Shown here piece after piece: positions 17,146-34,893 of a stretch of 38,061 nt of DNA. A program made the position numbers and the translations under genes. The stretch's first letter is position 1, and every line of letters starts with the position of its first letter. A model generated the notes under the pieces. That model did not search any database, was not told the DNA's origin, and saw only the letters and a program-made list of their open reading frames with translations. The stretch comes from a virus. Location: the IMG/VR virus record IMGVR_UViG_3300027911_000034, positions 1 to 38,061 of that record; one strand, given 5' to 3'.

Positions 17146-17481
17146 TTACTGGTAAGTGATCGCGATGATCGCGCCCGCGGGCGCCGGTGTCGTGTCCAAG
17201 TCATCCGGTCCGCCGGTCGCCCAAAAGTATATGTGTCCCGGGACGTTCAGGCCGTCGCCGCTGAACCCGATACCGCCCTGATTGCCGGCCAGCGCCGAAA
17301 GGGTGGCCACCGGGTGGGTCACGCCAACCTGCGGAATGGCCGTGGGCCCAATCAGATACAAACGCACGTACACGTCCGCGGCACCCGCCGTGTTGTCGAT
17401 CGTGGCCGCCAAGAATTGGTGAATGCCAGACACCAGCGTGAGGTTGGTGCCCGCCGTGGTGGTCTTGGTGAACACCGGCAC
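17146..17481 (-). CDS. Small virion protein next to the portal (111 aa)
   Basis: A beta-rich, nearly uncharged protein (VFTKTTTAGTNLTLVSGIHQF, then TAGAADVYVRLYLIGP). The GTG start at 17481 overlaps the portal TAG by one base (TAGTG). Composition and location suggest a head or portal-associated structural protein. No family was recognised. Confidence 0.5.
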   Translation of the reverse strand: MPVFTKTTTAGTNLTLVSGIHQFLAATIDNTAGAADVYVRLYLIGPTAIPQVGVTHPVATLSALAGNQGGIGFSGDGLNVPGHIYFWATGGPDDLDTTPAPAGAIIAITYQ

Positions 17482-19916
17482 TATTGTTCCTCCATCTCGA
17501 ACTCCATCATGGCGCCGCTCGGTAGCTTGGCCTTGCCGGTCCGCTTGCGCGGTTTCTTGGGCTCCTCGGACTTCGAGGCCTTCAATTGCGCGCCGAGCAT
17601 GTGGGCGAGCCCCATGATGGCCTCCTGCACCACCTTGGTGGCCTCGGCATTCTGCTTGGCCAAGTGCACGAGTTCCTGTAGCTCAGGATTGGGCTCTGCA
17701 GGGGCCACAGGGGCGGCAGCAGGCGTCGCGTCGGTCGCCTTGGCCTTGGCAGCGGGGGATACCGGCTCAGGCGGCGTAATGGCCTGCTGGTGCTCGGCAG
17801 CCATCATCTGCCGGCCCATGTCGGCATCTCCGGCCTCGAGGCCAAGGCTGTGCTCCTGCTGCTTGGCGTTGAGCCCAAGCGCGTGCTCGTGCTCGCGGTC
17901 GTGGATGCCAAGGGCGTGCTCGGCCACGGTCTGTACCTTCTCGTGGTGGTGCTGCTTGTCCTTGGCCTCGGCGGCAATCTTGGCGACCAGCAGCCTGACC
18001 ATGTTGGCCTCGTGCTTGTTGTTCTTGTCCATGGAGAGTTTCTGCACCAGCACGGTGAGCTGCTTGAGCTGCTGCTGCAGACGGATGGCCTCGGGGTCCT
18101 GCCCCATGCTGAAGCGCTCGCCGTCCGAGTAGCCGGTCAGCGCCATGATTTCCTTCCAGACCTCGCCAAGGTTGACCCCGGGCGGGGGCTTGACGCTGAT
18201 CTTGGCGAAGGATTCGACCCCGAGCAGGAACTTCTGCAGCTTCATCACGGGGTCCGTGGCGCCCATGCCGACGTTCACATTGACCGCAAGCTCGCGCTCA
18301 ATCATGTCGTCGGTAATCTTGTCCATGCCGAGCTTCTGCCAGAGCTTCGACTTGGCGCCGGCGATCTCGAGCACCACTTGATCGGTCTCGTAGTGCTGAT
18401 TGAGGAGCACTAGCTGCCTGAGCGTGGGCTGCACAAAGGTCTCGGCGAAGGTCTTCAGCATGTACTCGGTGAGCACTCCGGCAGGTGCCTGCAGCAGCGT
18501 CATCGCACGGGCGGGCTCGCGGGGCGCGCGGGCGGTCTGGACGCTTGCGGCACTGAAATTGCCCACCAGCTCGTCAAAAGCGGCGTTGTTGCGGTCCTCC
18601 TCGAGGTATGACGACTGCGTCACGTCCTGCCACTGATTCTCGACCACGTCGGTCGCCGGATCGTCCATCAGCGCCAAGCGGCCCGGGACATTGCGCACCA
18701 AGGCGGGCAGGTCGACATTCTTGCCGCGTTTGACAAAATAGCCCTTGTTGAGTACGAACTTGACGTTGTCCAGCCGGGAGTTCTTGATCTCGTTGATTTC
18801 ATCCTGCAGGCCGCGCGCCATCTGCGGCAGCGGGGTCGGGATAGGCTTGTGGGTCTCGATACTCGTGACCCCCATCACATAGGGACGCAACCCATGGAAA
18901 ACTGTCTGATCCAATGGCTCGGGGTCGGTGAGGAGTTTGCGCGAGTTGAGCGTGTAAAACTCATAATCGGTGCCGCGCCAGCGGTGAATGTGCCGGTGGA
19001 CGTAGCAAATGTCGTAGTCGCTGATATCCCGTTTCAGGTTGTAGGAATCCTCGCGGTTTCCTCCCCTTGTACGCCGGGTCGAATCGTCCTCATCCCGTGA
19101 TAGCAGGTCAGAATCGGGGTGGCTGGTCCACTTCCGGCCCTTGGGGTCCGGATGGTCCATGCGCGCCCTGACGTCGACCACGTACATGGGCAGAATGTGG
19201 ATGATGTAGGGGCTCGTGTTGACGGGGTCCGTCCAGCTTGCGGCCGGGTCGAATCGGAAATTCTCGATCGGGATGAGGTCGACCTGCGGCTGGTCCTTGT
19301 CGCGCATCAGCTTGCCGTCAGCGTCGCGCCGCATGCTGTAACGCCAGAAAATGTGCGCAATGGCGGCGCCCACGGTCTGCGCGTCCTGTATGGCGCCCAT
19401 CATGACCTGAAACCACGGGATGCTCTTGGTCAGGCGGTACTGCAGCAGCGCCTCATTAATCTCGGCGCTCGCCCGCTCGTTGGCATCGTTGCCGTTCACC
19501 GGGGTGATGGACACGCGGTCGAGGTTGCTGAAGAACGCAGCGGCAGCGGCTGCCTCGTTCTTGCGGATGATCGAGCGCGTCTTGGGTACGAAGATGTTCG
19601 AGCGCTTGCGCATGGACTCGGAGTTGAATTTCGAGTCGCCCGGGTGCTGCGAGTTGAAGGCGCGTATCGAGTCCTCCCACTCGCGGCGGTAGTTGGTGTC
19701 GATGAATGAGGTCGAGAACTTGTAGGCGTCCTGCGCCCGCGACTCCCACTTGGGCTGCTTGTCCTTGTTCGAGCCGCCATCGACGTCGGAGTCATTCTGC
19801 TCGGGCATGACGCCCTCGTCCTCGTCCTCCTCGCCGAGCTGCACCAGCTCGAGGTCACCCTCCTCGGGATCCTTGATGGAGGGCGGCTGCGGACGGTAAT
19901 TGGTGGACTGAGCCAT
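17481..19916 (-). CDS. Portal protein (811 aa)
   Basis: The start at ATG 19916 overlaps the preceding TGA (TGATG); an upstream in-frame start lies inside another gene. The acidic N-terminus is followed by the portal-like core: YRREWEDSIRAFNSQHPGDS, then KRSNIFVPKTRSIIRKNEAAAAAAFF, GAIQDAQTVGAAIAHIFW and a wing/stem region. The C-terminal 250 residues are Gln/Glu/His/Lys-rich helices with heptad character ending in a basic patch and an acidic tip. The length fits large podovirus portals (P22: 725 aa). It forms the dodecameric DNA channel and binds terminase; the terminase large gene is three genes upstream. Confidence 0.85.
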   Translation of the reverse strand: MAQSTNYRPQPPSIKDPEEGDLELVQLGEEDEDEGVMPEQNDSDVDGGSNKDKQPKWESRAQDAYKFSTSFIDTNYRREWEDSIRAFNSQHPGDSKFNSESMRKRSNIFVPKTRSIIRKNEAAAAAAFFSNLDRVSITPVNGNDANERASAEINEALLQYRLTKSIPWFQVMMGAIQDAQTVGAAIAHIFWRYSMRRDADGKLMRDKDQPQVDLIPIENFRFDPAASWTDPVNTSPYIIHILPMYVVDVRARMDHPDPKGRKWTSHPDSDLLSRDEDDSTRRTRGGNREDSYNLKRDISDYDICYVHRHIHRWRGTDYEFYTLNSRKLLTDPEPLDQTVFHGLRPYVMGVTSIETHKPIPTPLPQMARGLQDEINEIKNSRLDNVKFVLNKGYFVKRGKNVDLPALVRNVPGRLALMDDPATDVVENQWQDVTQSSYLEEDRNNAAFDELVGNFSAASVQTARAPREPARAMTLLQAPAGVLTEYMLKTFAETFVQPTLRQLVLLNQHYETDQVVLEIAGAKSKLWQKLGMDKITDDMIERELAVNVNVGMGATDPVMKLQKFLLGVESFAKISVKPPPGVNLGEVWKEIMALTGYSDGERFSMGQDPEAIRLQQQLKQLTVLVQKLSMDKNNKHEANMVRLLVAKIAAEAKDKQHHHEKVQTVAEHALGIHDREHEHALGLNAKQQEHSLGLEAGDADMGRQMMAAEHQQAITPPEPVSPAAKAKATDATPAAAPVAPAEPNPELQELVHLAKQNAEATKVVQEAIMGLAHMLGAQLKASKSEEPKKPRKRTGKAKLPSGAMMEFEMEEQ

Positions 19917-20278
19917 CAGTGGAAATTCCTGTCCTGACCGCGGTTGTAGGTGGGGATGCGTGGCTGCTCCTCGCCGTCCCATGCGCCGCGCTTGAGCGCG
20001 AACGCCTCGAGCAGGCGCCCGCCGTACTCAATCGCCGCCTGCTGCAGCTGCTTAGGGGTAGAGCGGCCATTGACGGGCAGAAGGCAGCTGAAGCCCTCGC
20101 GGCCGGTCTTCCACTTGACCATCTGCGCGATGTTGAGGTGCCGGAGCACCAGACAGCCGCCCTGAAACCCGACAACCCACGGGTGATTGGGGTAGAACTT
20201 CTGCAGCGCCTCGCCAAAGCGCACCGCGGCCTCGAGGTCCGAGACCTCATCCGGGTTGCCGTGCTCGAGGATATCCAT
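19916..20278 (-). CDS. Hypothetical protein between terminase and portal (120 aa)
   Basis: The ATG at 20278 overlaps the stop of the upstream gene (TGATG), which fixes the start; the longer open frame is a shadow. The fold appears mixed alpha/beta: LEAAVRFGEALQKFYPNHPWVVGFQGGCLVLRHLNI followed by a basic QLQQAAIEYGGRLLEAFALKRG helix. No motif is recognised. Position in the packaging block suggests a head-assembly accessory protein. Confidence 0.6.
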   Translation of the reverse strand: MDILEHGNPDEVSDLEAAVRFGEALQKFYPNHPWVVGFQGGCLVLRHLNIAQMVKWKTGREGFSCLLPVNGRSTPKQLQQAAIEYGGRLLEAFALKRGAWDGEEQPRIPTYNRGQDRNFH

Positions 20279-20472: not shown

Positions 20473-20660
20473 CAATAGCTCCCTTCAATGCCGGCCATGA
20501 ATGCCACATTCGCCTCTCGGTCACGCAGCTCCCTGACCTCGCCGGCCAGCCGCCTGACCTTGATGACCAGCTCCACCGGTAACGGCTCCTGCCTTGCTGC
20601 AATGCGATCGAGGCGCTGCAGCAGGCTGCGGATCTCGGTCTCGGTCAGGTCAAGCCTCAT
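20472..20660 (-). CDS. Small helical protein downstream of terminase (62 aa)
   Basis: Begins with ATG overlapping the TGA of the terminase large gene (ATGA). The sequence is Leu/Arg/Glu-rich and probably a coiled coil: EIRSLLQRLDRIAARQ and VRRLAGEVRELRDRE. It could be a packaging accessory or portal-associated peptide. The function is not recognised. Confidence 0.55.
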   Translation of the reverse strand: MRLDLTETEIRSLLQRLDRIAARQEPLPVELVIKVRRLAGEVRELRDREANVAFMAGIEGSY

Positions 20661-22294
20661 GTGTACTCGGGCTCCAACACGGTCGAGTCGATGAACTCAG
20701 GCGGACGCACGTCCATGTCGTAGATTCGCGAAACGGCGTCGATCAAGTCCTTAAGACCTGTGAACGGGTAGTAAGCCACCTGCATCCTAAACCGCTCGCT
20801 CAAATTGTAAAGTTGACCGTTCTCATCCCGCTGGATGATGGGTTTCGCTATGCGGTAGTCGTAGCCGGAGGCAATCATCCGCTGCTGCGACTCGGTGAAG
20901 TCGGGATCCTCGTCGGCGGGCTCGTAGGGCAGCCAAAAGGCATGGGAGCGGATGTCAGGCACAAGGCGGCTCACGCGGTCATCCTTGCTGCCCGGGCCGT
21001 CTGAGGGCCACTCAAGCTCCTCGATCTCGAGCCCGGAGACGTTCTCCACCCGGCGGCGCTCGAGGAAATAGTCCATATCGGCCTGCGCGCCGTACTTCTC
21101 GTAGCCGACCTTGACGCCCACCACGCCCGGCGCCACCCGCCACTTCTGCCAAAGCCCGCGCAGATGCGTCCAGCGCTCGAGCAGGTCCATGCGGTGATCG
21201 TAGCCGTCGAGCAGGAACTTGTTGCCATCGAACCCGACGCCAATGACCGCCATGGCCGTGCGCGCGGAGTCCTTTTTCTTGCTGCGGGCCGGGTCGATGG
21301 TGATGTAGACCATGAGGGTCTCGGGGCGCCACTCGTAGACCTGCAGGTCATTGGGATCGAACCAGCGCTGACTGCCTGCCAGCGGGTTTTGCAGCATTTG
21401 GGTGGCAATGGTCTCCTCGAGCTGCGTCTTGACCCGGCGGCGCCACTCGGCCTCGCTGAAAAGCACCGGGCGGCCCTCGACCGTACCGTCATGGGTCGCC
21501 GGGTAGATGCGCGCCTTGACGCTGCCGGTGGCCAATATCGAGGAGTAGGTATCGCCGTAGTGGTATCGCGTGCCGCACATTTGGCGCCTGCCACCCGCGG
21601 TACCAAGGTTGTCGGACATCGACCATGCTGCGGTGCACTTATGGATTTGCTCGGGGGTGGAGACCGACTCCATGGTGACGACGTCGTCATAGACCATCAG
21701 CTTGAAATGCCGGCTGGTCGGCTGGCCGTCGACTAGCCCGTGGGCCTCTACGGTGCATTCCTTGGGGTTGCTCGAGCGCTTGACTATCAGGCCCCCGTCC
21801 AGTGACCAGCTGGACGCCTCTGCCTGCGGGTTGGTCCACAGGATGTCCGGGAACAGGGCCTGCAAGTGGTGGTTGGTCTCCATCTCGCGCTTGAGCTGCG
21901 CAAGGAACGCCTTGGCGATCGGCTTGGTGTGGCTGAAGATCCCTACCGTGATTTCCGGGTCGCGCAGGATCTCCTGAAGGATGCCCGCGAAGGTAACGAC
22001 GCTGGATTTGTAGTGTTCCCTCGCCCATAAATCGAGGTAGCCATCGGGGGCGGCCTCGACCTCCCGGCAGCGCGCATAGATCCAGTGATGCCAGCAGTCC
22101 ACACGGCCACACGCCCGTACCAAGAGGTAGTAGCGGTCGTTTTGGCAGAGCCAGCGGGCGGCCTCGAGATTGTGACCTTTCTCGTCGAGCGCATCCCACG
22201 CCCCGAGGACATCACTGAACGCTAACGACTGAAGGGTCTGCCGGAGCCCGTCCAGCGAGTGCGGCTTCGAGTCGGGCACGCATGTCCTCGGCAT
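20657..22294 (-). CDS. terL: Terminase large subunit (545 aa)
   Basis: The ATPase domain has a Walker A-like segment AREHYKSSVVTF (residues 91-102, degenerate as in many phage terminases) and a Walker B, LMVYDDVVT, at 199-207. The nuclease domain begins with VYITIDPARSKKKDSARTAMAVIG, with the first catalytic Asp at about 334; later acidic residues lie in VKVGYEKYG and the DLIDAVSRIYDMD region near the C-terminus. ATG 22294 overlaps the small-subunit gene by 83 bp; no later start that would keep the ATPase domain is obvious. The enzyme drives packaging of the genome through the portal and cuts concatemers. Confidence 0.9.
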   Translation of the reverse strand: MPRTCVPDSKPHSLDGLRQTLQSLAFSDVLGAWDALDEKGHNLEAARWLCQNDRYYLLVRACGRVDCWHHWIYARCREVEAAPDGYLDLWAREHYKSSVVTFAGILQEILRDPEITVGIFSHTKPIAKAFLAQLKREMETNHHLQALFPDILWTNPQAEASSWSLDGGLIVKRSSNPKECTVEAHGLVDGQPTSRHFKLMVYDDVVTMESVSTPEQIHKCTAAWSMSDNLGTAGGRRQMCGTRYHYGDTYSSILATGSVKARIYPATHDGTVEGRPVLFSEAEWRRRVKTQLEETIATQMLQNPLAGSQRWFDPNDLQVYEWRPETLMVYITIDPARSKKKDSARTAMAVIGVGFDGNKFLLDGYDHRMDLLERWTHLRGLWQKWRVAPGVVGVKVGYEKYGAQADMDYFLERRRVENVSGLEIEELEWPSDGPGSKDDRVSRLVPDIRSHAFWLPYEPADEDPDFTESQQRMIASGYDYRIAKPIIQRDENGQLYNLSERFRMQVAYYPFTGLKDLIDAVSRIYDMDVRPPEFIDSTVLEPEYT

Positions 22295-23165: not shown

Positions 23166-23536
23166 CACTTCACCAGCGTGTTAGTGGGCGGGTTGGGCTT
23201 GGCGTGCGGGAAGGTCTTGCAGGCGACGGCCGAATAGGCCGATTCGCCGGCCAGCGGGGTGACTGCGGTCACCGCGTAGCAGGCTGTGCTGCCGGCCGTC
23301 AGGGCGGCTTGTGAGTCGGTGTAGGTGGTGCCGGTGAGGCCGGACGCCACCTGCGTCAGGATACCCGTGGCGGTCGTGCCGAAATACACGTTGTAGGTGA
23401 TGGCCTCGGTGATGGCCGTGCCGTCGGTGTACGTGGTGGGCGCCACCCAATTGAGCAGCGAGACGTTGGGCGACTGCGCCTTGACGCCAAAGAATGGGGC
23501 GAGGATGACTACGAGTGCGAGCATGGTGCGCTTCAT
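23165..23536 (-). CDS. Secreted FnIII-like protein (123 aa)
   Basis: The start at MKRTMLALVVILAPFFGVKAQS was chosen because its ATG overlaps the hldC-like TGA (ATGA). Residues 1-20 are a Sec signal peptide with an AQ cleavage region. The mature part has the W, Y and T pattern of a single fibronectin type III domain: LLNWVAPTTYTDGT, ITYNVYFG, then YTDSQAALTAGSTACYAVTAV and SAYSAVACKTF. Two Cys could form a disulfide in the periplasm. It is coupled to the heptose genes, so an envelope role such as a surface shield or superinfection factor is inferred. Which surface it binds is unknown. Confidence 0.65.
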   Translation of the reverse strand: MKRTMLALVVILAPFFGVKAQSPNVSLLNWVAPTTYTDGTAITEAITYNVYFGTTATGILTQVASGLTGTTYTDSQAALTAGSTACYAVTAVTPLAGESAYSAVACKTFPHAKPNPPTNTLVK

Positions 23537-23940
23537 GGCGTGGCCTCTTGGGCTAGCCGAGTGGTGGAGTAGCCGGCCAGTTCGGGCAGCTTGATGACCG
23601 GGACGCCGCAATACGTCTCGCCTTCTGTTGCCTGATCGTAGCCCCGAAAGTACACGGTCGGGCGCACGGCGGCAACTAACAGGCCCTCATCCCCTTCGAA
23701 GGGCATCAGGGACAGCGGGGCGCCGCCTTGGCGCAGGATGACCTTCCCCAGCTCATCGAGGTGCGCCAACCGGTGCGCCATGGTCCAGAAAGGCCGGTCG
23801 CGACCCTTCAGCGACTTGATGGACCTGTCCGAATTGACCGCCACCACGAGCCGGTCGCACTGCTGCGCGGCCAGCGTGAGCATGAACCGGTGCCCGTCAT
23901 GCAAGAGGTCGTAGCAGCCATTGGTCATGCCGAGAATCAT
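23533..23940 (-). CDS. hldC: HldC-like heptose-1-phosphate adenylyltransferase (135 aa)
   Basis: A nucleotidyltransferase of the cytidylyltransferase fold: NGCYDLLHDGH at residues 7-17 holds the HxGH signature. VNSDRSIKSLKGRDRP at 35-50 is characteristic of the second half of HldE/RfaE, and the C-terminal VIKLPELAGYSTT matches the same domain. It is expected to convert D-glycero-beta-D-manno-heptose 1-phosphate plus ATP to ADP-heptose. ATG 23940 overlaps the TGA of the kinase gene (ATGA). In many Gram-negatives this domain is fused to the kinase; here the two are separate genes, as in organisms with hldA and hldC. Confidence 0.85.
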   Translation of the reverse strand: MILGMTNGCYDLLHDGHRFMLTLAAQQCDRLVVAVNSDRSIKSLKGRDRPFWTMAHRLAHLDELGKVILRQGGAPLSLMPFEGDEGLLVAAVRPTVYFRGYDQATEGETYCGVPVIKLPELAGYSTTRLAQEATP

Positions 23941-24755
23941 GAGGCCAGCCCCTTGAGTGTTGCTGCGGTGCACGCAGAGGTACCCACCTCGCCCACTACG
24001 AAGCCTGACGACAGGATCGCCAATTGCACGGCCTGATCGAGCGGGGCGTCCACTGACATGGCGGCGGCCATGGTGGCCACGAAGGTATCGCCCGCCCCGG
24101 TGACGTCGTAGACGTGCTGCGCCTTAGCGGGATAGTGGACGCCACCCATCATGGCGCCTTTTTCGCCCTGCTTGACCACAAGGGTGGGGCCTAGCCTTTG
24201 CCATCCGCTCAGGATGGATTCCATATCCTCACTGTGTTTGCGCCACGCCGCATATTCGTCCGCATTCGGGCAAATCACATTCGCCCATCGGTATCTACCC
24301 CATTCCGCGCCTTTGGGGTCCACCACAGTCGGAATGCGGGACGACTGGCATTTCCTGATAATTTCCCTGACAAACCAGCTAGTTAGCCAGCCCTTGGCGT
24401 AGTCGCTGAAGACCACGGCGTCGATACCCTCGAGGGTTGGCAAATCCTCCTCTTTGGGGGATTGGTGCACGTCATAGTCCGCCCGGAACAATTGGTGCCG
24501 GCCCACCATGAACCGACGCTTGACCGTCCACGGCTTGGGCGGGAAACACTGCACGGGCCTGCAGCCGAACGCGGCGAGATTCTGGCAGACGTTGTAGGCG
24601 AGCCCGGGCCGGTCCTCGAGGCGCTCCTCGACAAACACGGGGACCGGCGCCTCCGGGCTCAGCCGGTCCACCCGCCCGTGGTGGTAGACATCGAAACCCG
24701 GGTCACCGACCACGAGAATGCGCTTGCCCTGCCATTGGTCAACAAGCTCTTTCAC
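23937..24755 (-). CDS. hldA: HldA-like heptose-7-phosphate kinase (272 aa)
   Basis: A PfkB/ribokinase-fold sugar kinase. The N-terminus has VVGDPGFDVYHHGRVDRLSPEAP and then ERLEDRPGLAYNVCQNLAAFG, the HldE kinase-domain pattern. VFSDYAKGWLT (about 115-125) and VVDPKGAEWG follow. The catalytic loop is VTGAGDTF at 218-225, with the base Asp at 223. It is expected to phosphorylate D-glycero-D-manno-heptose 7-phosphate to the 1,7-bisphosphate. The GTG start at 24755 overlaps the TGA of gmhA (GTGA). It is somewhat shorter than host HldE kinase domains (about 318 aa). Confidence 0.85.
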   Translation of the reverse strand: MKELVDQWQGKRILVVGDPGFDVYHHGRVDRLSPEAPVPVFVEERLEDRPGLAYNVCQNLAAFGCRPVQCFPPKPWTVKRRFMVGRHQLFRADYDVHQSPKEEDLPTLEGIDAVVFSDYAKGWLTSWFVREIIRKCQSSRIPTVVDPKGAEWGRYRWANVICPNADEYAAWRKHSEDMESILSGWQRLGPTLVVKQGEKGAMMGGVHYPAKAQHVYDVTGAGDTFVATMAAAMSVDAPLDQAVQLAILSSGFVVGEVGTSACTAATLKGLAS

Positions 24756-25327
24756 GCGGGTATCCCCCGCTCGATCCCCTCGACCAGAAGGTGAGTGATG
24801 AGGAGGTGCATTTCCTGTATCCGGGCCGTGACCTGACTCGGGACACGCAGCTCGACGTCCGCGGACTGCGCGAACCCGCGCTCCCCGGTGATGCCGAGCG
24901 TCGTCATGCCTTTCTTGCGGGCCGCGGCCAGTGCATTCAGCACAACCACGGACCGCCCGGACGTGCTGTAAGCCACGAGACAGTCGCCGGGGTGGGCGAG
25001 AGCCTCTATCTGCCGGCTGTACGCCTGCGGCCATCCTAGGTCGTTTGCGGCGGCCGACAGGATGGCCCCGTCGGAAGTCAGCGCCACAGCCGCCAGCGCC
25101 CGACGGTCAGTCGCATAGCGCACCTGAAGCTCGGCAACGAAATGACTAGCCTGAGCCGCGGAGCCACCGCAACCACACACCAGCAATTTACCGCCCTCAG
25201 CCAACGCCTTGAGGAGCATGGAGACCGCCGGCTCATACTCGAGATCGAGCGCCTTCGACAGCTCCGTGAGGATCCTGCCGTGCTCCACGCACGCCTTGTG
25301 CGTGAGGACAAATGTGGGTTCCTTCAT
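24752..25327 (-). CDS. gmhA: GmhA sedoheptulose-7-phosphate isomerase (191 aa)
   Basis: A SIS-domain isomerase. CGCGGSAAQASHFVAELQVRY (residues 51-71; key residues H62 and E66) and STSGRS at 121-126 match GmhA. RIQEMHLLITH near the C-terminus holds the equivalents of the zinc and catalytic residues (Q171, H179). It should convert sedoheptulose 7-phosphate to D-glycero-D-manno-heptose 7-phosphate, the first step to ADP-heptose. ATG 25327 overlaps the stop of a membrane microgene (ATGA). The size matches E. coli GmhA (192 aa). Key residues are intact, so activity is likely. Confidence 0.88.
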   Translation of the reverse strand: MKEPTFVLTHKACVEHGRILTELSKALDLEYEPAVSMLLKALAEGGKLLVCGCGGSAAQASHFVAELQVRYATDRRALAAVALTSDGAILSAAANDLGWPQAYSRQIEALAHPGDCLVAYSTSGRSVVVLNALAAARKKGMTTLGITGERGFAQSADVELRVPSQVTARIQEMHLLITHLLVEGIERGIPA

Positions 25328-25425
25328 GGCGCATTGGCGCCAAACAAATGCCCCAAGCACACGACGCCCGCCACCAGCAGAATGAGCGCCACCCACCCCA
25401 CCGCAATGGCGCCGATCAATTTCAA
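25324..25425 (-). CDS. Membrane microprotein (33 aa)
   Basis: A TTG start at 25425 overlaps the nuclease TGA (TTGA), and its own TGA overlaps the gmhA ATG (ATGA). The 99 coding bases translate to a short basic start (KL) followed by one transmembrane segment: IGAIAVGWVALILLVAGVVC. The C-terminus is GHLFGANAP. Exact coupling at both ends and one coherent hydrophobic segment argue for a real gene. It may act at the inner membrane with the heptose cassette. The TTG start is unusual and lowers certainty. Confidence 0.6.
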   Translation of the reverse strand: MKLIGAIAVGWVALILLVAGVVCLGHLFGANAP

Positions 25426-25784
25426 GTAGTCGAGTCGGGTGCACTCCTCGCTGTCTTGCGAGCAATCAGCTGCTTTTCTCCGCTCCCCTTCCATGCTCCT
25501 CTCCCCTCTGTAGCCCCAATCGCCCGCAGCGCCTCCTCAGGCGTCGTGACTATGGGAATGTGATGCAGTTCACACAATCGCTTTTGCTTAAGCATTTTCC
25601 CATTGGGGCCCATCATGTTGTTGACCAAGCCGGGCGTCTTGCACTCGAGCACGTGCCACCGATCACGGTAGTGAACCAGCAGGTCTACGGGCTCATGCAG
25701 GCGCCACACGGTAGCGCCATGCGCCCTGAGCCACTCCACAATGGCCTTCTCCGACTTGTCTCGAGCCTTTGCGTACAGTCTCAC
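25422..25784 (-). CDS. PD-(D/E)XK nuclease-like protein (120 aa)
   Basis: KSEKAIVEWLRAHG (early Glu) is followed by VDLLVHYRDRWHVLECKTP, in which Asp-x14-Glu-x-Lys matches the PD-(D/E)XK active-site pattern found in VRR-NUC and Holliday-junction-resolvase-like nucleases. A later VTTPEEALRAIGA helix is typical of small VRR-NUC proteins. The C-terminal 30 residues are a polar tail. The GTG start at 25784 overlaps the stop of a 28-aa microgene (GTGA). Probable roles are recombination or resolution of branched DNA before packaging, in line with the nearby exonuclease and SSB. Confidence 0.65.
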   Translation of the reverse strand: MRLYAKARDKSEKAIVEWLRAHGATVWRLHEPVDLLVHYRDRWHVLECKTPGLVNNMMGPNGKMLKQKRLCELHHIPIVTTPEEALRAIGATEGRGAWKGSGEKQLIARKTARSAPDSTT

Positions 25785-28892: not shown

Positions 28893-29087
28893 TTAGTAGG
28901 CTTGCCCGGGCGGGCGGAGGAAATCAGGGACCGGAGGGATGGAGCCCTCCGGCATCGCGGTGAAAATCGGCTGAGTCTTGCCATGCTTGTCGAGCGTCCA
29001 CGTGATGGCAATTATCAGGCCGTGACGCTCGCACAGCTCGGCAATCTGTCGGCCCGTCATGTACGGGTGGAATGAAATCCCGCTCAT
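28893..29087 (-). CDS. Hypothetical protein (64 aa)
   Basis: The ATG at 29087 (MSGISFHPYMTG) overlaps the upstream TGA (ATGA), fixing the start. Compact alpha/beta: GRQIAELCERHGLIIAITWTLDKHG, then IFTAMPEGSIPPVPDFLRPPG. The function was not recognised. Confidence 0.5.
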   Translation of the reverse strand: MSGISFHPYMTGRQIAELCERHGLIIAITWTLDKHGKTQPIFTAMPEGSIPPVPDFLRPPGQAY

Positions 29088-29437
29088 GACAGGAAAAACC
29101 CTGTGATGATTCCGATGAGCACGCCCCACGACAGCCACAGGATGATGTCCTCCGCGGCGTGCCGCAGGTTGCGGCGGCTATTCTCGGCTTCCCACAGGGC
29201 ACGCACATGGCGCCAATCGGTTTCGGTGTACTTCACTCTTGGTCTCCCATTCTCTTGGTGATTAAGATCGCCATCGACAGTGCGGCATGCCATTCGGGGG
29301 GGGGCCAATTCATCCGTCGACACAATGTTAGGAACCATGCAAAGCATGTTCCTCATAACCATTGCCTCGAGGCGCGTCGCTTCATCACCCATCAGCTCGG
29401 CGAGTTCGGATAGGTCCATGTGCGGTGAGATAATCAC
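29084..29437 (-). CDS. Small membrane-tail protein (117 aa)
   Basis: The GTG start at 29437 overlaps the TGA of the Ala-repeat gene (GTGA), in the repeated junction sequence described under 29433-30332. The first two thirds are soluble and charged (LAELMGDEATRLEAMVMRN, WRHVRALWEAENSRRN). The C-terminus is a transmembrane anchor WLSWGVLIGIITGFFLS. A C-tail-anchored inner-membrane protein is predicted. The function is unknown. Confidence 0.55.
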   Translation of the reverse strand: MIISPHMDLSELAELMGDEATRLEAMVMRNMLCMVPNIVSTDELAPPRMACRTVDGDLNHQENGRPRVKYTETDWRHVRALWEAENSRRNLRHAAEDIILWLSWGVLIGIITGFFLS

Positions 29438-29853
29438 GGCGCACCCCCCACGATTCTCAGGAATTCTTTGAGTTGCGCATCCCCCGCGGCATCCCTCGCG
29501 GCAGCACACGCGGCAGCACACGCGGCAGCCCTCGCGGCATCCAATTGCTTTTTTGTTGCCTTGCCGTGCGCGTACTTTTCTGCCACGTCGATAGCCGCTA
29601 TTGAGCGCTGGTCAGTCGTCAGGTGTTGCACCTGCCTTGCGCACCAGACCGCATACAGTCGCCACGTTTTGTTGTGGCGAGGCGCGGCCCGCGTAGCCCA
29701 TAGCGCATCCTCTAGTCCGCACGCTTCGACGATGACGGCGAACGGCAAGGGCGCGTTGTCGGCCCGCGTCTTGCCGAGATGCTTTAGCAACTTGTGCCAC
29801 GAGTCTTCGCAAGGGTGGTGCTTGCGGATCGCGTTTAGGGTGGTGCAGATCAC
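29434..29853 (-). CDS. Protein with Ala-Cys-rich tandem repeat (139 aa)
   Basis: The GTG start at 29853 overlaps the upstream TGA (GTGA). The body contains CEDSWHKLLKHLGKTRADNAPLPF and WRLYAVWCARQVQHLT, a pattern common in phage hypothetical proteins. Near the C-terminus a run of A-A-[RC]-A units is encoded by five 12-bp repeats (29486-29545). The end is IVGGAP, part of a repeated junction sequence. The function is unknown. Confidence 0.6.
   Translation of the reverse strand: MICTTLNAIRKHHPCEDSWHKLLKHLGKTRADNAPLPFAVIVEACGLEDALWATRAAPRHNKTWRLYAVWCARQVQHLTTDQRSIAAIDVAEKYAHGKATKKQLDAARAAACAAACAAARDAAGDAQLKEFLRIVGGAP
29486..29545 (-). repeat. 12-bp tandem repeat x5 inside a gene
   Basis: Five consecutive 12-bp units of the type gcggcagcacac run without a break. 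They encode the four-residue repeat A-A-x-A. Units 2 and 3 are identical; units 1 and 5 differ at a few bases. Being in frame, copy number can vary without disrupting the protein. Confidence 0.85.
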
Positions 29854-30038
29854 GGCGCACCCCCCGTCGCCTTGGCAACCCGGCCGTGGAACACGTCGGC
29901 GCAACGCTCATCGCAGAAGCACGCGACGGGCGTGCATTCAGGATCGGCGCCACGTTCCTCTGTGTCGTAAAACCCATCGGCGTCGACTTCTACGAATCGA
30001 CCGCAGTTAGGGCAACGCCATTGCTCCAATGTGTTCAT
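29850..30038 (-). CDS. Zinc-ribbon-like small protein (62 aa)
   Basis: RCPNCGRFVEVDADGFYD and then CFCDERCADVF give CxxC...CxxxC spacing typical of a zinc ribbon. ATG at 30038 overlaps the upstream TGA (ATGA). It ends KATGGAP like its neighbour, because of the repeated junction DNA. It could be a small nucleic-acid-binding or regulatory protein. Confidence 0.6.
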   Translation of the reverse strand: MNTLEQWRCPNCGRFVEVDADGFYDTEERGADPECTPVACFCDERCADVFHGRVAKATGGAP

Positions 30039-30322
30039 GCGGCACCCCCCGTCGCCTTGACGATCGCGGCGCGGGCGCGCTCTACTTGTCCGCGATAGGC
30101 GGGAATTCCCCCGCCGCCGCCCAGCGTGTTCACCAGCGATTGCAAAATGACAAGCATGTCCGGCGCGGCGGCGATCAGCGCGGCATTCGCCGCCGCGTTG
30201 ATGTTGGTGTGATTGCCGCCCAAACGGCAGACAGGGACGCCGTCAGTGCCGTGCACCGAAAAGTGCCCGGCTTCGTCTAGGCTTTCGACCGTCTGCCACG
30301 GCCCCGGCGTGTGCGCGCTCAT
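30035..30322 (-). CDS. Conserved phage protein, HTPGPW type (95 aa)
   Basis: The start at ATG 30322 (MSAHTPGPW) overlaps the upstream TGA (ATGA); the longer open frame is a shadow. The opening AHTPGPWQTVESLDEAGHFSVHG is shared by many small phage proteins of unknown function. AAANAALIAAAPDMLVILQSL is a helical core also typical of that group. It ends KATGGAA. Confidence 0.65.
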   Translation of the reverse strand: MSAHTPGPWQTVESLDEAGHFSVHGTDGVPVCRLGGNHTNINAAANAALIAAAPDMLVILQSLVNTLGGGGGIPAYRGQVERARAAIVKATGGAA

Positions 30323-30570
30323 GCGGCACCCCGGGCGGCTTCGCGCCGCATCCTGCTGGTCATCATCTTCATGCGCGGCGGCTGCATGCCCTTGCAGAAG
30401 TAGGCGCTGGCGCGGCGCACGCAAGAGGCCACGTACTCGGGCGTCGTGCCGAACAGGTCGGCCACCAGTGATTCGGAAATGACGGGGAAATCTTCGTTGC
30501 CCGCATCGCCGTCGTTCAGCGCGATCCATTCGATCGCGGCGCTAAAGGTCGGCTTGCCAGTCGTGCTCAT
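30319..30570 (-). CDS. Hypothetical early protein (83 aa)
   Basis: ATG 30570 overlaps the upstream TGA (ATGA). AAIEWIALNDGDAGNEDF, then VADLFGTTPEYVASCVRRASAYF, resembles a small helical fold that could contain a helix-turn-helix, followed by a basic tail. The N-terminal IEWIALNDG segment is seen in other small phage proteins. The function is unknown. Confidence 0.5.
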   Translation of the reverse strand: MSTTGKPTFSAAIEWIALNDGDAGNEDFPVISESLVADLFGTTPEYVASCVRRASAYFCKGMQPPRMKMMTSRMRREAARGAA

Positions 30571-30746
30571 GAGAACACCTCCTGCAGCAGCTCGATCTTG
30601 GCGCCCAACTGGTCCCGCGCTATCAGGATCGTGCGCATCGTGAGGGTCGCCGTGCCGGCTATCGAGGCCAGCGCCTTGGCCGCATCGTTCACGGGGTAGT
30701 AAACCGTGTTGCCGTAGACCTGCTTTTTCTGGATGATTACGTTCAT
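30567..30746 (-). CDS. First gene of the second early transcript (59 aa)
   Basis: The ATG at 30746 (MNVIIQKKQVYGN) was chosen because it follows an AGGAG site and the in-frame start at 30788 lies inside the -10 box. The body VYYPVNDAAKALASIAGTATLT is followed by MRTILIARDQLGAKIELLQ. It lies downstream of promoter 30780-30807. The family was not recognised. Confidence 0.55.
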   Translation of the reverse strand: MNVIIQKKQVYGNTVYYPVNDAAKALASIAGTATLTMRTILIARDQLGAKIELLQEVFS

Positions 30747-30779
30747 GTCTGTTCGCTCCTGTTTATTCACCACGATTCG

Positions 30780-30807
30780 AGTATACACCTTTTCGAGTAG
30801 AGTGCAA
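30780..30807 (-). promoter_or_regulatory. Leftward early promoter 2
   Basis: On the minus strand TTGCAC, 16 bp, TATACT, close to the sigma70 consensus, with a short leader before the ATG at 30746. It contains the operator-like dyad at 30784-30799. The surrounding about 45 bp match promoter 1 (31140-31167), including upstream AAAGTGTGAAC. Confidence 0.8.
30784..30799. promoter_or_regulatory. Operator-like dyad O2 (TACAC-N6-GAGTA)
   Basis: A 16-bp imperfect inverted repeat between the -35 and -10 of promoter 2. It is one of three copies in the control region. Confidence 0.7.
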
Positions 30808-30815
30808 GCCCTAGT

Positions 30816-31109
30816 TCACACTTTTTCACACCAACTGCAATCCGGGTCCTCGCACGGGGTAAGGCCTTCCGAGACAATCCTCCTGAGCTGCCCCTCGAGT
30901 ATCTTCCAGTCAGGGGTAACTTCTCCCTCGCCGCCCATCAAGGATCCGTCGGAATGGCACTGACTCCCGGAAAACACCATCGTGGGATGGTCAAGCATCA
31001 ATTCATAGCTGACCGGTTCGCCGGTTCGCGGGTGACGCTTGCGTCCGGGCGTGAACTCGACCTCGATCCCGGCTTGAGCGGCAATCCTCATAAATTCCGA
31101 CTTGCTCAT
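30816..31109 (-). CDS. Gene flanked by duplicated promoters (97 aa)
   Basis: The start at ATG 31109 (MSKSEFMRIAA) was chosen for its GGAGGAG site; the upstream ATG would be almost leaderless. EVEFTPGRKRHPRTGEPVSYELMLDHP is beta-rich and basic. The C-terminus CEDPDCSWCEKV holds three Cys and may bind metal. It is the first gene of the leftward transcript, directly under the operator-bearing promoter. The function is unknown. Confidence 0.6.
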   Translation of the reverse strand: MSKSEFMRIAAQAGIEVEFTPGRKRHPRTGEPVSYELMLDHPTMVFSGSQCHSDGSLMGGEGEVTPDWKILEGQLRRIVSEGLTPCEDPDCSWCEKV

Positions 31110-31139
31110 TGCTCCTCCATTTCCCAACCCTCGAGGCCT

Positions 31140-31167
31140 ATTATACTCTTTTCTGAGTAGAAGTCAA
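31140..31167 (-). promoter_or_regulatory. Leftward early promoter 1
   Basis: On the minus strand TTGACT, 16 bp, TATAAT: an excellent sigma70 promoter. It reads into the 97-aa gene and on into the early operon. The operator dyad at 31144-31159 fills the spacer and overlaps the -10. Confidence 0.88.
31144..31159. promoter_or_regulatory. Operator-like dyad O1 (TACTC-N6-GAGTA)
   Basis: A perfect 5-bp inverted repeat with a 6-bp spacer, in the spacer/-10 of promoter 1. It is the best match among the three copies. Confidence 0.75.
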
Positions 31168-31191
31168 GTGCTGGTTCACACTTTCTGCATC

Positions 31192-31221
31192 TTGCTTTTG
31201 GTACACGAGAGGGAGTAGGAT
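31192..31221 (+). promoter_or_regulatory. Rightward promoter of the HTH gene
   Basis: TTGCTT, 18 bp, TAGGAT: a moderate sigma70 match about 30 bp before the AGGAGG ribosome site of the HTH gene. The third operator-like dyad (31202-31217) lies between the boxes, which suggests autoregulation. Confidence 0.65.
31202..31217. promoter_or_regulatory. Operator-like dyad O3 (TACAC-N6-GAGTA)
   Basis: A third copy of the 16-bp dyad, located in the rightward promoter spacer. Same half-site arrangement as O2. Confidence 0.7.
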
Positions 31222-31252
31222 AGACCGACGCCCCTATGGGCAGGAGGTCGGT

Positions 31253-31444
31253 ATGGAGGAATGGGCTAAGAAACTGGCACGGGTGCTGCAGCGCACCAGT
31301 CAGTCGGAATTGGCTAAGGCTTGCGGGGTGAGCCCGCAGCATGTGTGCGACGTGGTGGCCGGCAGGCGCAGGCCTCGTAACGCCCTGCTGCATTACCTTG
31401 GGTTCGAGCGAGTCACCATAACGCGACCCCGGAGGGCGGCCTAA
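31253..31444 (+). CDS. Cro/XRE-type helix-turn-helix regulator (63 aa)
   Basis: The only rightward gene. SQSELAKACGVSPQHVCDVVAGRRRP (about residues 16-41; recognition helix in SPQHVCDVVAG) is a clear lambda-repressor-like HTH, followed by a short basic C-terminus. It has no extra dimerisation or cleavage domain, so it is Cro-like in size. ATG 31253 follows AGGAGG. Its own promoter and the two leftward promoters carry the same dyad, so it is the natural candidate to bind all three and time the early-to-late switch. DNA binding is inferred. Confidence 0.8.
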   Translation: MEEWAKKLARVLQRTSQSELAKACGVSPQHVCDVVAGRRRPRNALLHYLGFERVTITRPRRAA

Positions 31445-31862
31445 CCCCCCGGGGTTGCGTAACCGGGCAGTGGCGGTATCGGCTTACCCTGTTATAGGGG
31501 GATAATACAGTAGAAAGGGTTTACAACGTAAAAGGGACCCGTTAGGGTCCCTCTCACCGGTCGGGGTCAAGCCGATTCGGGGCGCGCAAAGCGGGAAAAC
31601 GCTCCCCTCCGATGGAGCAAATTTCCTCCTCTCCCCCGGACCTGTCAAGCCCCCTCCGGTCGCCAAGACGCGCGACAGTCGTGGGGCCTCACAGGGGCCT
31701 GCCCGTCAGCAAACTCTGTGACTGTCCACCGGGGGGTAGCGTGCCCGGTGGGCTTAAGTCCGGGCTCTGAGTACCCCTCTCAACCCGGCGCCCTTGACGG
31801 AGAAACGCAGTCGAGTATCCCCGGTAACCCCTACCGGAAGGGAGAAAGAGGGGTCGCTTTGC
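31445..31862. other. Hairpin-rich non-coding region next to the regulator
   Basis: No convincing ORF was found in 418 bp. Besides the terminator at 31530-31552 it holds stems at 31724-31753 (CCACCGGG/CCCGGTGG, 10-base loop, extendable by a GU and a GC pair), 31689-31721 (TCACAG/CTGTGA) and 31821-31837 (CCGGT/ACCGG). It is the only stretch of this size without a gene. Candidates are a replication origin or a structured 3' UTR / non-coding RNA of the leftward late transcript. Confidence 0.6.
31530..31552 (-). terminator. Terminator of the leftward late transcript
   Basis: An 8-bp perfect stem AGGGACCC/GGGTCCCT, loop of 4, followed on the minus strand by a short T run (TTTTACG). It lies about 310 bp beyond the last lysis-region gene and before the early promoters, so it would stop transcripts that have travelled round the circle. 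Confidence 0.7.
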
Positions 31863-32141
31863 TCAGGGCTTTGGAGCAGCGTTGATAACGGCAGCGTCCA
31901 AGAGCTTCAGGACGGTTAGCGCCCGGTCAATGTCGGCCTGACGCGCTCCGGCCAAGTGACCGGGGTCAATGTGCTCGAGGAGCCACGCCAAGGCCCGCCA
32001 GCCCCGATTGGGCTTACCGCCGTTCATCTCCCTCCAACACAGGCTGGAAATTGTGACGTCACTGCGGTTCCACAGCCACGACGCCAGCAGAATGTCGATG
32101 CTGTAGGCGATCGTGTGGCTGTAGGTTTTGCTCCAACTCAT
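31863..32141 (-). CDS. Hypothetical protein at the end of the lysis region (92 aa)
   Basis: ATG 32141 overlaps the upstream TGA (ATGA). The sequence is Trp-rich (SWSKTYSHTIAYSIDILLASWLWNRSD) with a helical second half (GWRALAWLLEHIDPGHL, then ADIDRALTVLKLLDAAV). It is the last gene before the non-coding region. No family was recognised. Confidence 0.5.
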   Translation of the reverse strand: MSWSKTYSHTIAYSIDILLASWLWNRSDVTISSLCWREMNGGKPNRGWRALAWLLEHIDPGHLAGARQADIDRALTVLKLLDAAVINAAPKP

Positions 32142-32290
32142 GCGCTGGCATCCGCAGCGACCTGCACAGGCGTCAGGGGCGCCGCAAAGGTGGCGGGGGT
32201 AGTCAGCACAGGGACGTTGGCCAGCGCCGCCAGAATCGCCTGTACGGCAGCCACGTCGGTGGCATTGGTCGGGTCAAAGGTAAGGGTCAT
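32138..32290 (-). CDS. Small protein in the lysis region (50 aa)
   Basis: The ATG at 32290 was chosen since it lies just after the upstream TGA; the longer frame is a shadow. MTLTFDPTNATDVAAVQAILAAL followed by PVLTTPATFAAPLTP. It is small and neutral with no membrane segment. The function is unknown. Confidence 0.5.
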   Translation of the reverse strand: MTLTFDPTNATDVAAVQAILAALANVPVLTTPATFAAPLTPVQVAADASA

Positions 32291-32291
32291 G

Positions 32292-32828
32292 TCAGTGCCT
32301 CGCGAGCTGGAAGGTAAAGCCACAGCAGGCTGCCCGCGGGTCGGTCTTGGGGTTGACCGTGGCCGGCGAGGCATCCTGCGGAATCAGGCACCAGCCAATG
32401 CGGAACTCCCAACCGGAAGCCGCCTTGAGCCAGAAACCCGCATAAACGCCCTGCCACGCCAACGACCAGCCGTGACTGCCCGCGGCGTATAGATTCGACA
32501 CTCCTCGGCCTCGAATCTTGGCAGGGTTGATGGGAAACCCGAACCCAATGAACCGCAGGCCGGCGGCTCCATTGCGCAGGGCTGAATTCACATAGACCTC
32601 GAAGGGCGTCATTCCCTTGGACGGCATGACGCCTTGGTCGTAGTCGTTCCACAGCTCGGCCCACGCGGGCGTGAACACGGTAATAGGGGCGCCGCACACA
32701 TTGACCCCGGGGCCCCATAGGCGCCTCAGCGTCAAATACAGCACTGTAATGAGCCCCACCGCACGTACAAGAGCCGTCAGCGCAAGGAACATCGTCCAAA
32801 TGACGATCCACACGGGCAGCAAAATCAT
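32292..32828 (-). CDS. Membrane-associated protein of the lysis region (178 aa)
   Basis: The start at ATG 32828 overlaps the holin TGA (ATGA); the longer frame runs antisense-like through the holin end and is rejected. The N-terminal 35 residues are a hydrophobic segment ([20 protein letters not shown]) followed by a second hydrophobic stretch. The soluble part contains [17 protein letters not shown] and GFGFPINP, with several Trp. It may be a lysis or envelope protein, although no known spanin or holin motif is seen. Confidence 0.5.
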
Positions 32829-33358
32829 GTTGCACCTCCCTTGATGGCACTGCTCACGAGCGCTGCATCCTTGCTGCGGCTGCCGGCACTCGACCCAAAG
32901 TAATACGCAATGACACTGGCCCACGCACCGCCGAGCGCCCCCAGCATGACCAGCAGCGCATCTCCCCCCTCTTTCGGTTTGCCCACAGCCAGCATGTACC
33001 CGAGTACGCCAAAGAAACCCACGGTGACGATAAAAGCCAAAAGGCTCGGCGTCGAATCCTTGACGGCCTCCTCTCGCTTGCGGGCGGAATCGGTGTCCGC
33101 ATACGCGAGCTGGTCCTCCTGTACCCCCAACTCCGACATATGTGCTTTGAAGTCGAGTTCGGCTTTCTTGAGGGACAGCAGCGTCGCCGGATCCCCCGAC
33201 AGCAGCGCCGTGGCTGCCGCGGACGTATCGCCGGGGGTCGTCCCCAATGCCTTGGCGAGAAAGGTCCCCGCGGCGCCTCCCAGCGGTCCGCCGAGCGCGG
33301 CCCCGAGCACCGGCGCCACGGTGCCGATGATGGCCTTGACGTTGTCGCTGAAGTTCAT
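32825..33358 (-). CDS. Putative holin (177 aa)
   Basis: Three hydrophobic segments: an N-terminal Gly/Ala-rich region (about 10-39), [19 protein letters not shown] (about 108-126) and [21 protein letters not shown] (about 135-155). A charged helical domain (about 60-105) lies between the first two. This resembles the three-segment phage holins next to lysis enzymes. ATG 33358 overlaps the endolysin TGA (ATGA). It would permeabilise the inner membrane at lysis. Confidence 0.7.
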
Positions 33359-33699
33359 GCGGTCACCCCGTCGGGCGAGAGACTGAAGTGGTTGCCGTCC
33401 GGGCGGCTATGGAAATCCCCACCCCACCGGTAGGCCGGGCCGAGAGTCTTCCACCACGCGCCGATATCGGCCAAGAGACTGCCGTCCGACACGTAGGCGC
33501 CGGCCTTGAAAAAATTGAGGTCGATGGCGAGGCGGTAAATATGCAGGCTGTGCACGATCCCCGTGCCGTGCTGAGCGTTGAGGAGCGCTTGCTCGGGCGT
33601 CCGGTAGGCCTCGCCCAAGGTCACCCCATAGCCCAGCTCGTGGGCTTTCTGGATGAGCTTGGCGACACTCTGTGAGAACTCCTCCTGCAATGCGCTCAT
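33355..33699 (-). CDS. M15-type endolysin (114 aa)
   Basis: A compact peptidase M15C domain: [12 protein letters not shown] (Arg33) and [14 protein letters not shown] (residues 51-64, zinc ligands His53 and Asp60). [17 protein letters not shown] follows with the third zinc ligand His104. This is the L-alanyl-D-glutamate endopeptidase pattern used by phages to cut peptidoglycan cross-linking peptides. No signal peptide, so it needs the holin. ATG 33699 overlaps the upstream TGA (ATGA). Confidence 0.88.
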
Positions 33700-33908
33700 G
33701 CGTGGTCCCTCTCGTCAAACCGACCTTCAATACGGGTCAGCCGCAGGTTGATGGACTGGATGTCCCGGCCGATCTCATCCATGCGCTTGATGTGCCGGCC
33801 TAGGACCATGCGGGTCACCCACGCCGCTGAGCTTGCCAGCGCGCCCGCGGCCCAGCCGCCGTACTGCGTCAGTGCATCCGTGAGTTCCAAGTGCCGGGCT
33901 TCCTTCAT
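33696..33908 (-). CDS. Small membrane/coiled-coil protein of the lysis cassette (70 aa)
   Basis: Residues about 15-36 (GGWAAGALASSAAWVTRMVLG) form one membrane segment. It is followed by a polar helix DEIGRDIQSINLRLTRIEGRF with heptad spacing. The order fits hemolysin-XhlA-like, holin-like or antiholin proteins next to endolysins. ATG 33908. It could also be an i-spanin fragment; no o-spanin partner is adjacent. Confidence 0.55.
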   Translation of the reverse strand: MKEARHLELTDALTQYGGWAAGALASSAAWVTRMVLGRHIKRMDEIGRDIQSINLRLTRIEGRFDERDHA

Positions 33909-33915
33909 GGCGGCC

Positions 33916-34893
33916 TCAGGTCAGCGGGTAAAGGATGTTGACGTAAGCAGTGAATCCCTTAAGACCGCTGGCCGTGAACCCGTTTGGATTGTTGGCTACC
34001 CCGGCACCAAAGGTAATGGTTCCCGAGCCCACGGCCAAATTCGCGAAGGCCAAAATACCGACGGAATTGTCCTCCATTGGCACAACTGTGACGCATGCAC
34101 TGTTTTGCGGCTGCAGGGCCGCCGGCAGGCCGGTCATCGTGAACGTCGTGGCGTTGGAGGTTGAGTTCCCGGAGGAGATGGACAGGTTGACCATCCGCCC
34201 CATGATGGTCGCCGTCACGGTCGGTGTCAGCGGGCTCGCATAGCCCGTGAGCGTGCCGGTGAAGGTCGTGACTTGGATGGAATTGTTGACCAAGTACCAC
34301 GCGCCGCTGTAGTAGACGACCGTAGTGAACTGACCGGCCTGAATCTGCCCGGCGTGCAGCGCCGCCCCGCCTTGGTTGTAGATGGAGGTCGCGCCGAGAT
34401 AGCCCGAGCCATTGGGGTTGACGTTGAGCGTCGAGCCGCCCGTGTTGGTGTTGGCCGCGTAGAACGTGATTTGAATGCCATTGGACAGCGACGTCCACGG
34501 CACGCTCGGGGCTATCGCGTAGGCATTGGCGGACCCCGTGTCATTGCCGCCAAAGTAGGAGGTCGCATTGGCCACCAGCGAGGTCGGGTCGTTGATGCCG
34601 GGCAATTGGTCGATGTAGGCGGGGGTGGTGAGCCCGGTGCCGCCAAATTGGTCGGTGAGCTGCAGTTTCACCTTGACGCCTGCCGCTACCCACAGCCCAT
34701 TGGGCGGGCGCCCGTTTGACAGGCACACCAGCGGGTTGGCATTCGGGGTGGTCAGGGTCGAGTCGGTGTAGGTCGTCTGCGGTGTCGTGGTGCCCGCCTG
34801 ATAGACGTAAATCTTGTAGCCGTTGCCCAGCTGCAGGTTGTCATTGATGGCGTTGAAAAACGGACCGATGGGGATGTAGTAACCCTGTGCCAT
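33916..34893 (-). CDS. Putative tail fibre protein (325 aa)
   Basis: The N-terminus contains NLQLGNGYKIYVYQAGTTTP, then TDSTLTTPNANPLVCLSNGRP, a pattern shared by phage tail fibres and tailspikes in their head-binding/neck region. The rest is a Gly/Asn/Thr-rich beta structure ending in a compact sheet (GLKGFTAYVNILYPL). ATG 34893. At 325 residues it is short, so it may be a connector fibre carrying another receptor-binding protein. It lies between the ATP-grasp gene and the lysis genes. Confidence 0.7.
   Translation of the reverse strand: MAQGYYIPIGPFFNAINDNLQLGNGYKIYVYQAGTTTPQTTYTDSTLTTPNANPLVCLSNGRPPNGLWVAAGVKVKLQLTDQFGGTGLTTPAYIDQLPGINDPTSLVANATSYFGGNDTGSANAYAIAPSVPWTSLSNGIQITFYAANTNTGGSTLNVNPNGSGYLGATSIYNQGGAALHAGQIQAGQFTTVVYYSGAWYLVNNSIQVTTFTGTLTGYASPLTPTVTATIMGRMVNLSISSGNSTSNATTFTMTGLPAALQPQNSACVTVVPMEDNSVGILAFANLAVGSGTITFGAGVANNPNGFTASGLKGFTAYVNILYPLT

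Follow-up and report, generated by a model that had tools for sequence, protein, structure and literature searches.

In the cluster I mycobacteriophages, comparison of Island3 genes 67/68 with Brujita has revealed an extra gene whose 3′ end (60 bp, encoding 18 C-terminal residues) repeats that of the preceding gene, with Brujita carrying a single recombinant copy whose upstream portion matches one of these two ends and whose downstream portion matches the second (PMC3029335). Lambdoid boundary sequences (Susskind & Botstein 1978; Clark et al. 2001, HK620), as they are presented where cited in PMC3029335 and PMC3233612, are short conserved inter-gene sequences proposed to allow homologous exchange of modules. 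Start-associated sequences (SAS) of cluster K mycobacteriophages have a 13-bp consensus present in 11–19 copies genome-wide, mostly in intergenic regions of >50 bp (PMC3203893), and phage Rad52-like annealing proteins carry out a relaxed homologous recombination that tolerates short and diverged homology and has left traces at ~30% of mosaic borders (PMC3945230). Mosaicism at gene borders could stem either from homology at boundary sequences or from illegitimate exchange followed by selection, and for most borders no boundary sequence can be identified (PMC3029335, PMC3233612).

The window, the whole 38,061-base stretch analyzed here, is an IMG/VR phage record with a portal-like protein at 17481–19982 and a terminase at 20657–22294, and it contains an array of small minus-strand genes in the 5′ to 3′ order A, B, C, D, E, F. 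Gene A (30567–30746, 59 aa) is the upstream neighbor of a repeat array formed by four successive junctions, J1 to J4, and its own ATGA overlap with gene B has a Shine–Dalgarno (SD) sequence, AGGAGGTG, that differs from theirs. Gene B (30319–30570, 83 aa) ends in ..REAARGAA, and gene C (30035–30322, 95 aa), between J1 and J2, ends in ARAAIVKATGGAA. Between J2 and J3 lies the Cys-rich gene D (29850–30038, 62 aa; tail RVAKATGGAP), which looks zinc-ribbon-like as judged by eye, and between J3 and J4 lies gene E (29434–29853, 139 aa), which starts with GTG, contains Ala-rich repeats, and ends in FLRIVGGAP. The GTG-initiated gene F (29084–29437, 117 aa) is the first past the last repeat, and the motif is absent from its own 3′ end. 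Genes C and E match phrog_1273 (E = 1.4e-17) and phrog_18326 (E = 4.4e-39), respectively, by which we take both to be real genes, and the homologs of E start at ATG/GTG-ATCTGC, in agreement with its GTG start. Homologs of B, D, and F were not detected (B was searched in the phages collection), and the third codon positions of these genes are GC-rich, like those of the remaining phage genes.

Around this array, two 43-bp direct repeats, 77% alike, lie upstream of gene A (30782–30824) and of the gene at 30816–31109 (31142–31184), beside a small plus-strand helix-turn-helix (HTH) gene (31253–31444), and look like paired operator/promoter regions. Elsewhere on the minus strand, at 23533–25465, three adjoining ADP-heptose-pathway-like genes constitute unusual cargo for a 38-kb phage; they resemble a heptose-1-phosphate adenylyltransferase (HldE domain II-like), a heptose-7-phosphate kinase (HldE domain I-like), and a GmhA-like phosphoheptose isomerase, all below the NCBIfam equivalog cut-offs. 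Also on the minus strand (34899–37897), a PurD/GARS-like ATP-grasp protein (TIGR00877, E = 8.7e-25, below cut-off) has a 4-nt overlap with a 559-aa protein that matches a zeta-toxin-like P-loop kinase (Pfam E = 5.6e-11), and this pair could serve nucleotide or DNA modification chemistry.

All four junctions are minus-strand 4-nt stop/start overlaps. At J1 (B/C, 30319–30332; GGGGTGCCGCATGA), which includes the SD core, the stop of B overlaps the ATG of C (ATGA, 30319–30322). J2 (C/D, 30035–30058; AAGGCGACGGGGGGTGCCGCATGA; ATGA, 30035–30038) matches J3 on its left and J1 on its right, J3 (D/E, 29849–29873; AAGGCGACGGGGGGTGCGCCGTGAT; GTGA, 29850–29853) matches J2 on its left and J4 on its right, and J4 (E/F, 29433–29449; GGGGGGTGCGCCGTGAT; GTGA, 29434–29437) contains the VGG codons of the family-typical end of E (IVGG). 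An earlier note on this DNA had claimed four stop/start overlaps in a row with nearly the same sequence, and this proved correct: GGGGTGCNNNRTGA has exactly four matches in the window, all at these overlaps, against a shuffle expectation of 0.07, with four matches reached in 0/100 shuffles. Since the core GGGGTGC alone is not enriched in the window (7 found versus 11.5 expected), the signal is its placement at the junctions. Comparison of longest common runs across 18 overlap junctions of the window yielded 14 bp for J1–J2 (the right side of J2, like J1), 18 bp for J2–J3 (CAAGGCGACGGGGGGTGC, the left side of J2), and 16 bp for J3–J4 in the scored context, or 17 bp with the next base (the right side of J3), whereas non-consecutive pairs share only 7 bp (J1–J3 and J1–J4) or 9 bp (J2–J4) and every other junction comparison gave ≤8 bp. 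The sharing between adjacent junctions that the note described was thus borne out, but not its single boundary element: the four junctions are three overlapping repeat pairs rather than copies of one consensus element, and because the similarity is between nearest neighbors only, C, D, and E are each flanked by their own direct repeat. The same holds in part for the protein tails, with C (KATGGAA), D (KATGGAP), and E (IVGGAP) ending in GGAP or GGAA as had been stated and B (RGAA) not doing so. Within the 18-bp run of J2 and J3, the tail codons are identical including their third positions while the gene bodies are unrelated, such that unrelated adjacent genes have the same 3′ end at the DNA level; J4 has only the SD/start part in common.

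A regulatory function of the repeats, recognized by a phage or host factor in the manner of the SAS, would place them directly before starts, in one orientation, in a non-structural region, and with the SD within the repeat (PMC3203893), and the window repeats share all of these properties. However, in place of a ~13-bp genome-wide consensus at many starts, there are four sites only, confined to one array and matching their neighbors alone, and all four sit inside coding overlaps of 4 nt rather than in the >50-bp intergenic gaps of most SAS, which makes this reading highly improbable. Tandem duplication of whole genes, whose bodies then diverged while their ends were conserved, is also very unlikely here. 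It does hold for one group of other loci (L084–L094/L162–L174), where the tail AAIRARGEKP belongs to a tandem paralog family, but blastp among genes A to I of the window recovered no relation (the best hit being a 13-residue, chance-level match of C and E), C and E belong to different known families, and 19 of 21 survey pairs described below are non-paralogous.

Functionally, the core is a strong SD located inside the last codons of the upstream gene. Assuming a standard 16S tail, its pairing with the anti-SD reaches −13 kcal/mol in J2–J4, equal to the canonical AGGAGGU, and a weaker −8.7 in J1; by this pairing energy the core acts as the ribosome-binding site of the next gene, and the overlap presumably couples translation. 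An alternative explanation is convergence: with the frame set by a 4-nt overlap and an optimal SD required 6–7 nt ahead of the start, a GC-rich genome would arrive at GGGGGGTGC each time, and the likeness would be that of ordinary ribosome-binding sites. Consistent with such convergence, GGGGGGTG has the full strength of an SD, and when 85,000 genomes were scanned for AARGCNACGGGGGGTGCNNNRTGA, the two matches obtained were both located where unrelated actinobacterial genes overlap stop to start, with KATGGA tails. Moreover, in the families of C and E an SD of this sort is often encoded by the final residues (KA[TEK]GG and IVGG), and J4 may accordingly be native to E in part. Against it, other window junctions use other SDs, matches of >9 bp occur only between consecutive J junctions, the match takes in sequence ahead of the SD (AAGGCGAC) as well as part of the spacer, and in the survey below, same-locus non-adjacent junctions under equal constraints match ~19 times less often. 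Convergence can build a single junction of this kind, but it leaves neighbor-only matching unexplained, and, already weakened by the adjacency effect, it seems to us a rather unlikely account of the array.

Relatives of the window array were sought with genes B, C, D, E, and F, the NGO0469-type gene, and the terminase, and in the collections searched there were none, only fragments of the same virus (L002 and L208) or distant phages. Of the fragments, L002 is 100% identical to the window over 29417–34694, all four junctions included. Another contig containing GGGGGGTGCGCCGTGAT, L082, was rejected, as its match lies inside a gene and is due to chance, and J3 had only chance matches, in Microbacterium phages, in the phages collection. 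As a positive control, the lambda nin junctions were weak (longest run 9 bp), and in isolates with a gene E homolog (AF, phiEt88, PPpW-3, and Manatee Spring) the adjoining junctions are not obviously alike. Indels in the Ala-rich repeats of gene E homologs are changes in repeat length and were set aside, as was an ARAAIAKA tail common to several protein families, which is dominated by one family. Separately, the gene E homologs of L084, L086, L089, L091, L093, and L162 are extended by a tail, ..TETxCCEAIRARGE, with the same ending as an adjoining tandem paralog family, as if it had been grafted on.

Searching for the motif elsewhere, as the earlier note had suggested, did locate the J3 core between other genes: AAGGCGACGGGGGGTGC is present in two further viral contigs, L175 and L176, each time at a KATGGAP*/GTGA overlap. 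The first 24 bp of J3 are identical in both contigs (29/30 bases in L176), so that one short sequence adjoins different genes from phage to phage. Downstream, L175 and L176 share 98.8% identity over 5060 bp, starting inside the motif at L175 position 1482, which is 38 bp ahead of the GTG start of a gene for a NrdR-like zinc-ribbon protein; upstream of the breakpoint the genes differ, L175 encoding a 56-aa protein and L176 a Cys-rich protein of 110 aa. In L176, the gene for the latter sits between two motif copies, JL and JR (CCCGCGCAACC[A/G]TTGCAAAGGCGACG), giving a repeat of 26 bp with one mismatch at both gene ends, and the lone L175 copy matches JL on its left side over 43 bp (91%) and JR on its right side. 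One-copy and two-copy states are thereby seen for the same motif, though the gene upstream differs too, and by sequence comparison the arrangement appears to be the recombinant pattern published for Island3/Brujita. The earlier proposal that the motif is a boundary for cassette swapping is thus partly supported, by the change of gene content exactly at the motif in L175/L176 and by the survey and breakpoints described below; what does not stand is a single element, and the SD core can arise by convergence.

To place these junctions in a wider context, we surveyed 127 loci after dereplication; these were collected through genes C and E and are hence not an unbiased sample. In them, 357 genes are flanked on both sides by SD-bearing overlaps. 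The two ends share a run of at least 14 bp in 18 of the 357 (5.0%), compared to 3/1155 (0.3%) non-adjacent junction pairs of the same locus and 11/19961 pairs between loci (Fisher P = 2e-9). When junction order was shuffled within loci, such genes numbered 4.7 on average and never more than 11, versus the 18 observed (P ≤ 0.0005), and the excess persists when the window or the paralogous AIRARG group is left out. The 19 non-paralogous pairs mentioned above, out of 21 with runs of at least 12 bp, are spread over 16 loci. Common ribosome-binding preferences do not explain this adjacency effect. Runs of at least 10 bp occur in 0/38 adjacent pairs of terminase-side control loci versus 32/357 in early arrays, a contrast that is suggestive only (Fisher P = 0.058). 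The shared sequences vary between phages: GAGGAGGTGAAGCCGTGA is at three junctions of L133 and nearly whole at a fourth, while L124 has CAAAGGAGGCAAAGTGA and L087 has GGAGACCGCCGCATGA. The longest seen is a 30-bp exact repeat in L014 (GAAATAAAAGGAGCTTTAGCTTCATTGTGA, at 7416 and 8099) around a 228-aa gene, which makes this gene a good candidate for locating an empty site.

Between related loci, left edges of identity fall at −40 to +9 of overlapping starts in 33 cases versus 7.1 expected, and right edges at −20 to +9 in 20 versus 3.8 expected; because edges pile up at these starts, a downstream gene retains the final ≤40 bp of upstream coding sequence and, within them, its own SD. The same edge placement is seen for single gene indels between related loci. 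In several of these (L126/L133, L150/L134, and L037/L008), only 3–10 bp, about an SD plus ATGA, are common at the seam, and here illegitimate exchange plus selection is possible. Extended to all of the junctions, this would mean random breakpoints among which the survivors kept an SD and a start, with no homology-directed step, and the clustering of breakpoints at junctions is expected from this process too. Alone, however, it gives no 24–30-bp repeats at both ends of a gene, such as those of L014 (30 bp), L176 (26 bp with one mismatch), and L162, and we consider it unlikely as the general explanation.

Taken together, we think it probable that SD-bearing 3′ tails with overlapping starts act as seams in an early accessory operon, joining one single-gene cassette to the next: neighbors alone pair, the same seam joins other genes elsewhere, and a breakpoint lies inside it. 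In so tight an overlap, each gene has its ribosome-binding site within the final codons of its upstream neighbor, so gain, loss, or replacement would be harmless only if the SD-bearing tail and overlapping start were kept or duplicated. Exchange would then be resolved within these few tens of bases, most likely by annealing-type homologous recombination of the phage or by direct-repeat deletion, leaving each inserted gene flanked by matching ends (C by J1/J2, D by J2/J3, and E by J3/J4) and letting unrelated proteins inherit the same C-terminal tail. That recombination at the seam is homologous is something we infer, as are the enzyme and the order of insertion in the window phage. Weighing against this reading, the collections searched yielded no relative that would show gain or loss in the window array, and the 14–18-bp runs of the window are shorter than the ~30-bp minimum cited for Red-beta (PMC3945230), although L175/L176 have 26–43 bp. 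More tentatively, and with more doubt than conviction, we posit that lineage-specific, self-propagating junction sequences, each made up of an SD-bearing 3′ tail and an overlapping start, might form a general seam for gene-by-gene exchange in phage accessory operons, where each insertion copies the seam, seams multiply along the array, and single-gene gain or loss becomes progressively easier while each gene keeps its ribosome-binding site.

With respect to the origin of gene-border mosaicism, the survey suggests that boundary sequences can be found when both ends of a gene are compared within a single genome, in ~5% of the overlapping gene pairs of these arrays. Such a two-end comparison is a simple genome-wide test and yields a repeat-length prediction for a bench assay. 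It also calls for caution in annotation, as a C-terminal tail that recurs in small phage proteins with no relation to one another can be a seam at the DNA level and not a protein motif.

Among the known systems, Rad52-like annealing is the agent proposed here, although its published substrates are hundreds of bp long; no such recombinase was recognized among the window proteins scanned, and in isolates the gene E homolog can lie near Erf or RecT genes. Lambdoid boundary sequences, as far as they are described in the papers that cite them, are alike in being short conserved inter-gene sequences and proposed sites of exchange, but are conserved between phages at a given junction, whereas those of the window are repeated at successive junctions of one genome. 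Island3/Brujita shares with L175/L176 both the repeated 3′ end and the recombinant single copy, but involves one gene pair, compared to three consecutive genes in the window, each with its own 14–18-bp repeat; in addition, and unlike Island3/Brujita, the seams of the window always combine an SD with a 4-nt overlap, and the survey suggests that they recur in many phages. The window seams are serial, very short, and SD-bearing, with Island3/Brujita as one published precedent of the same kind, and such seams are apparently recurrent in phages.
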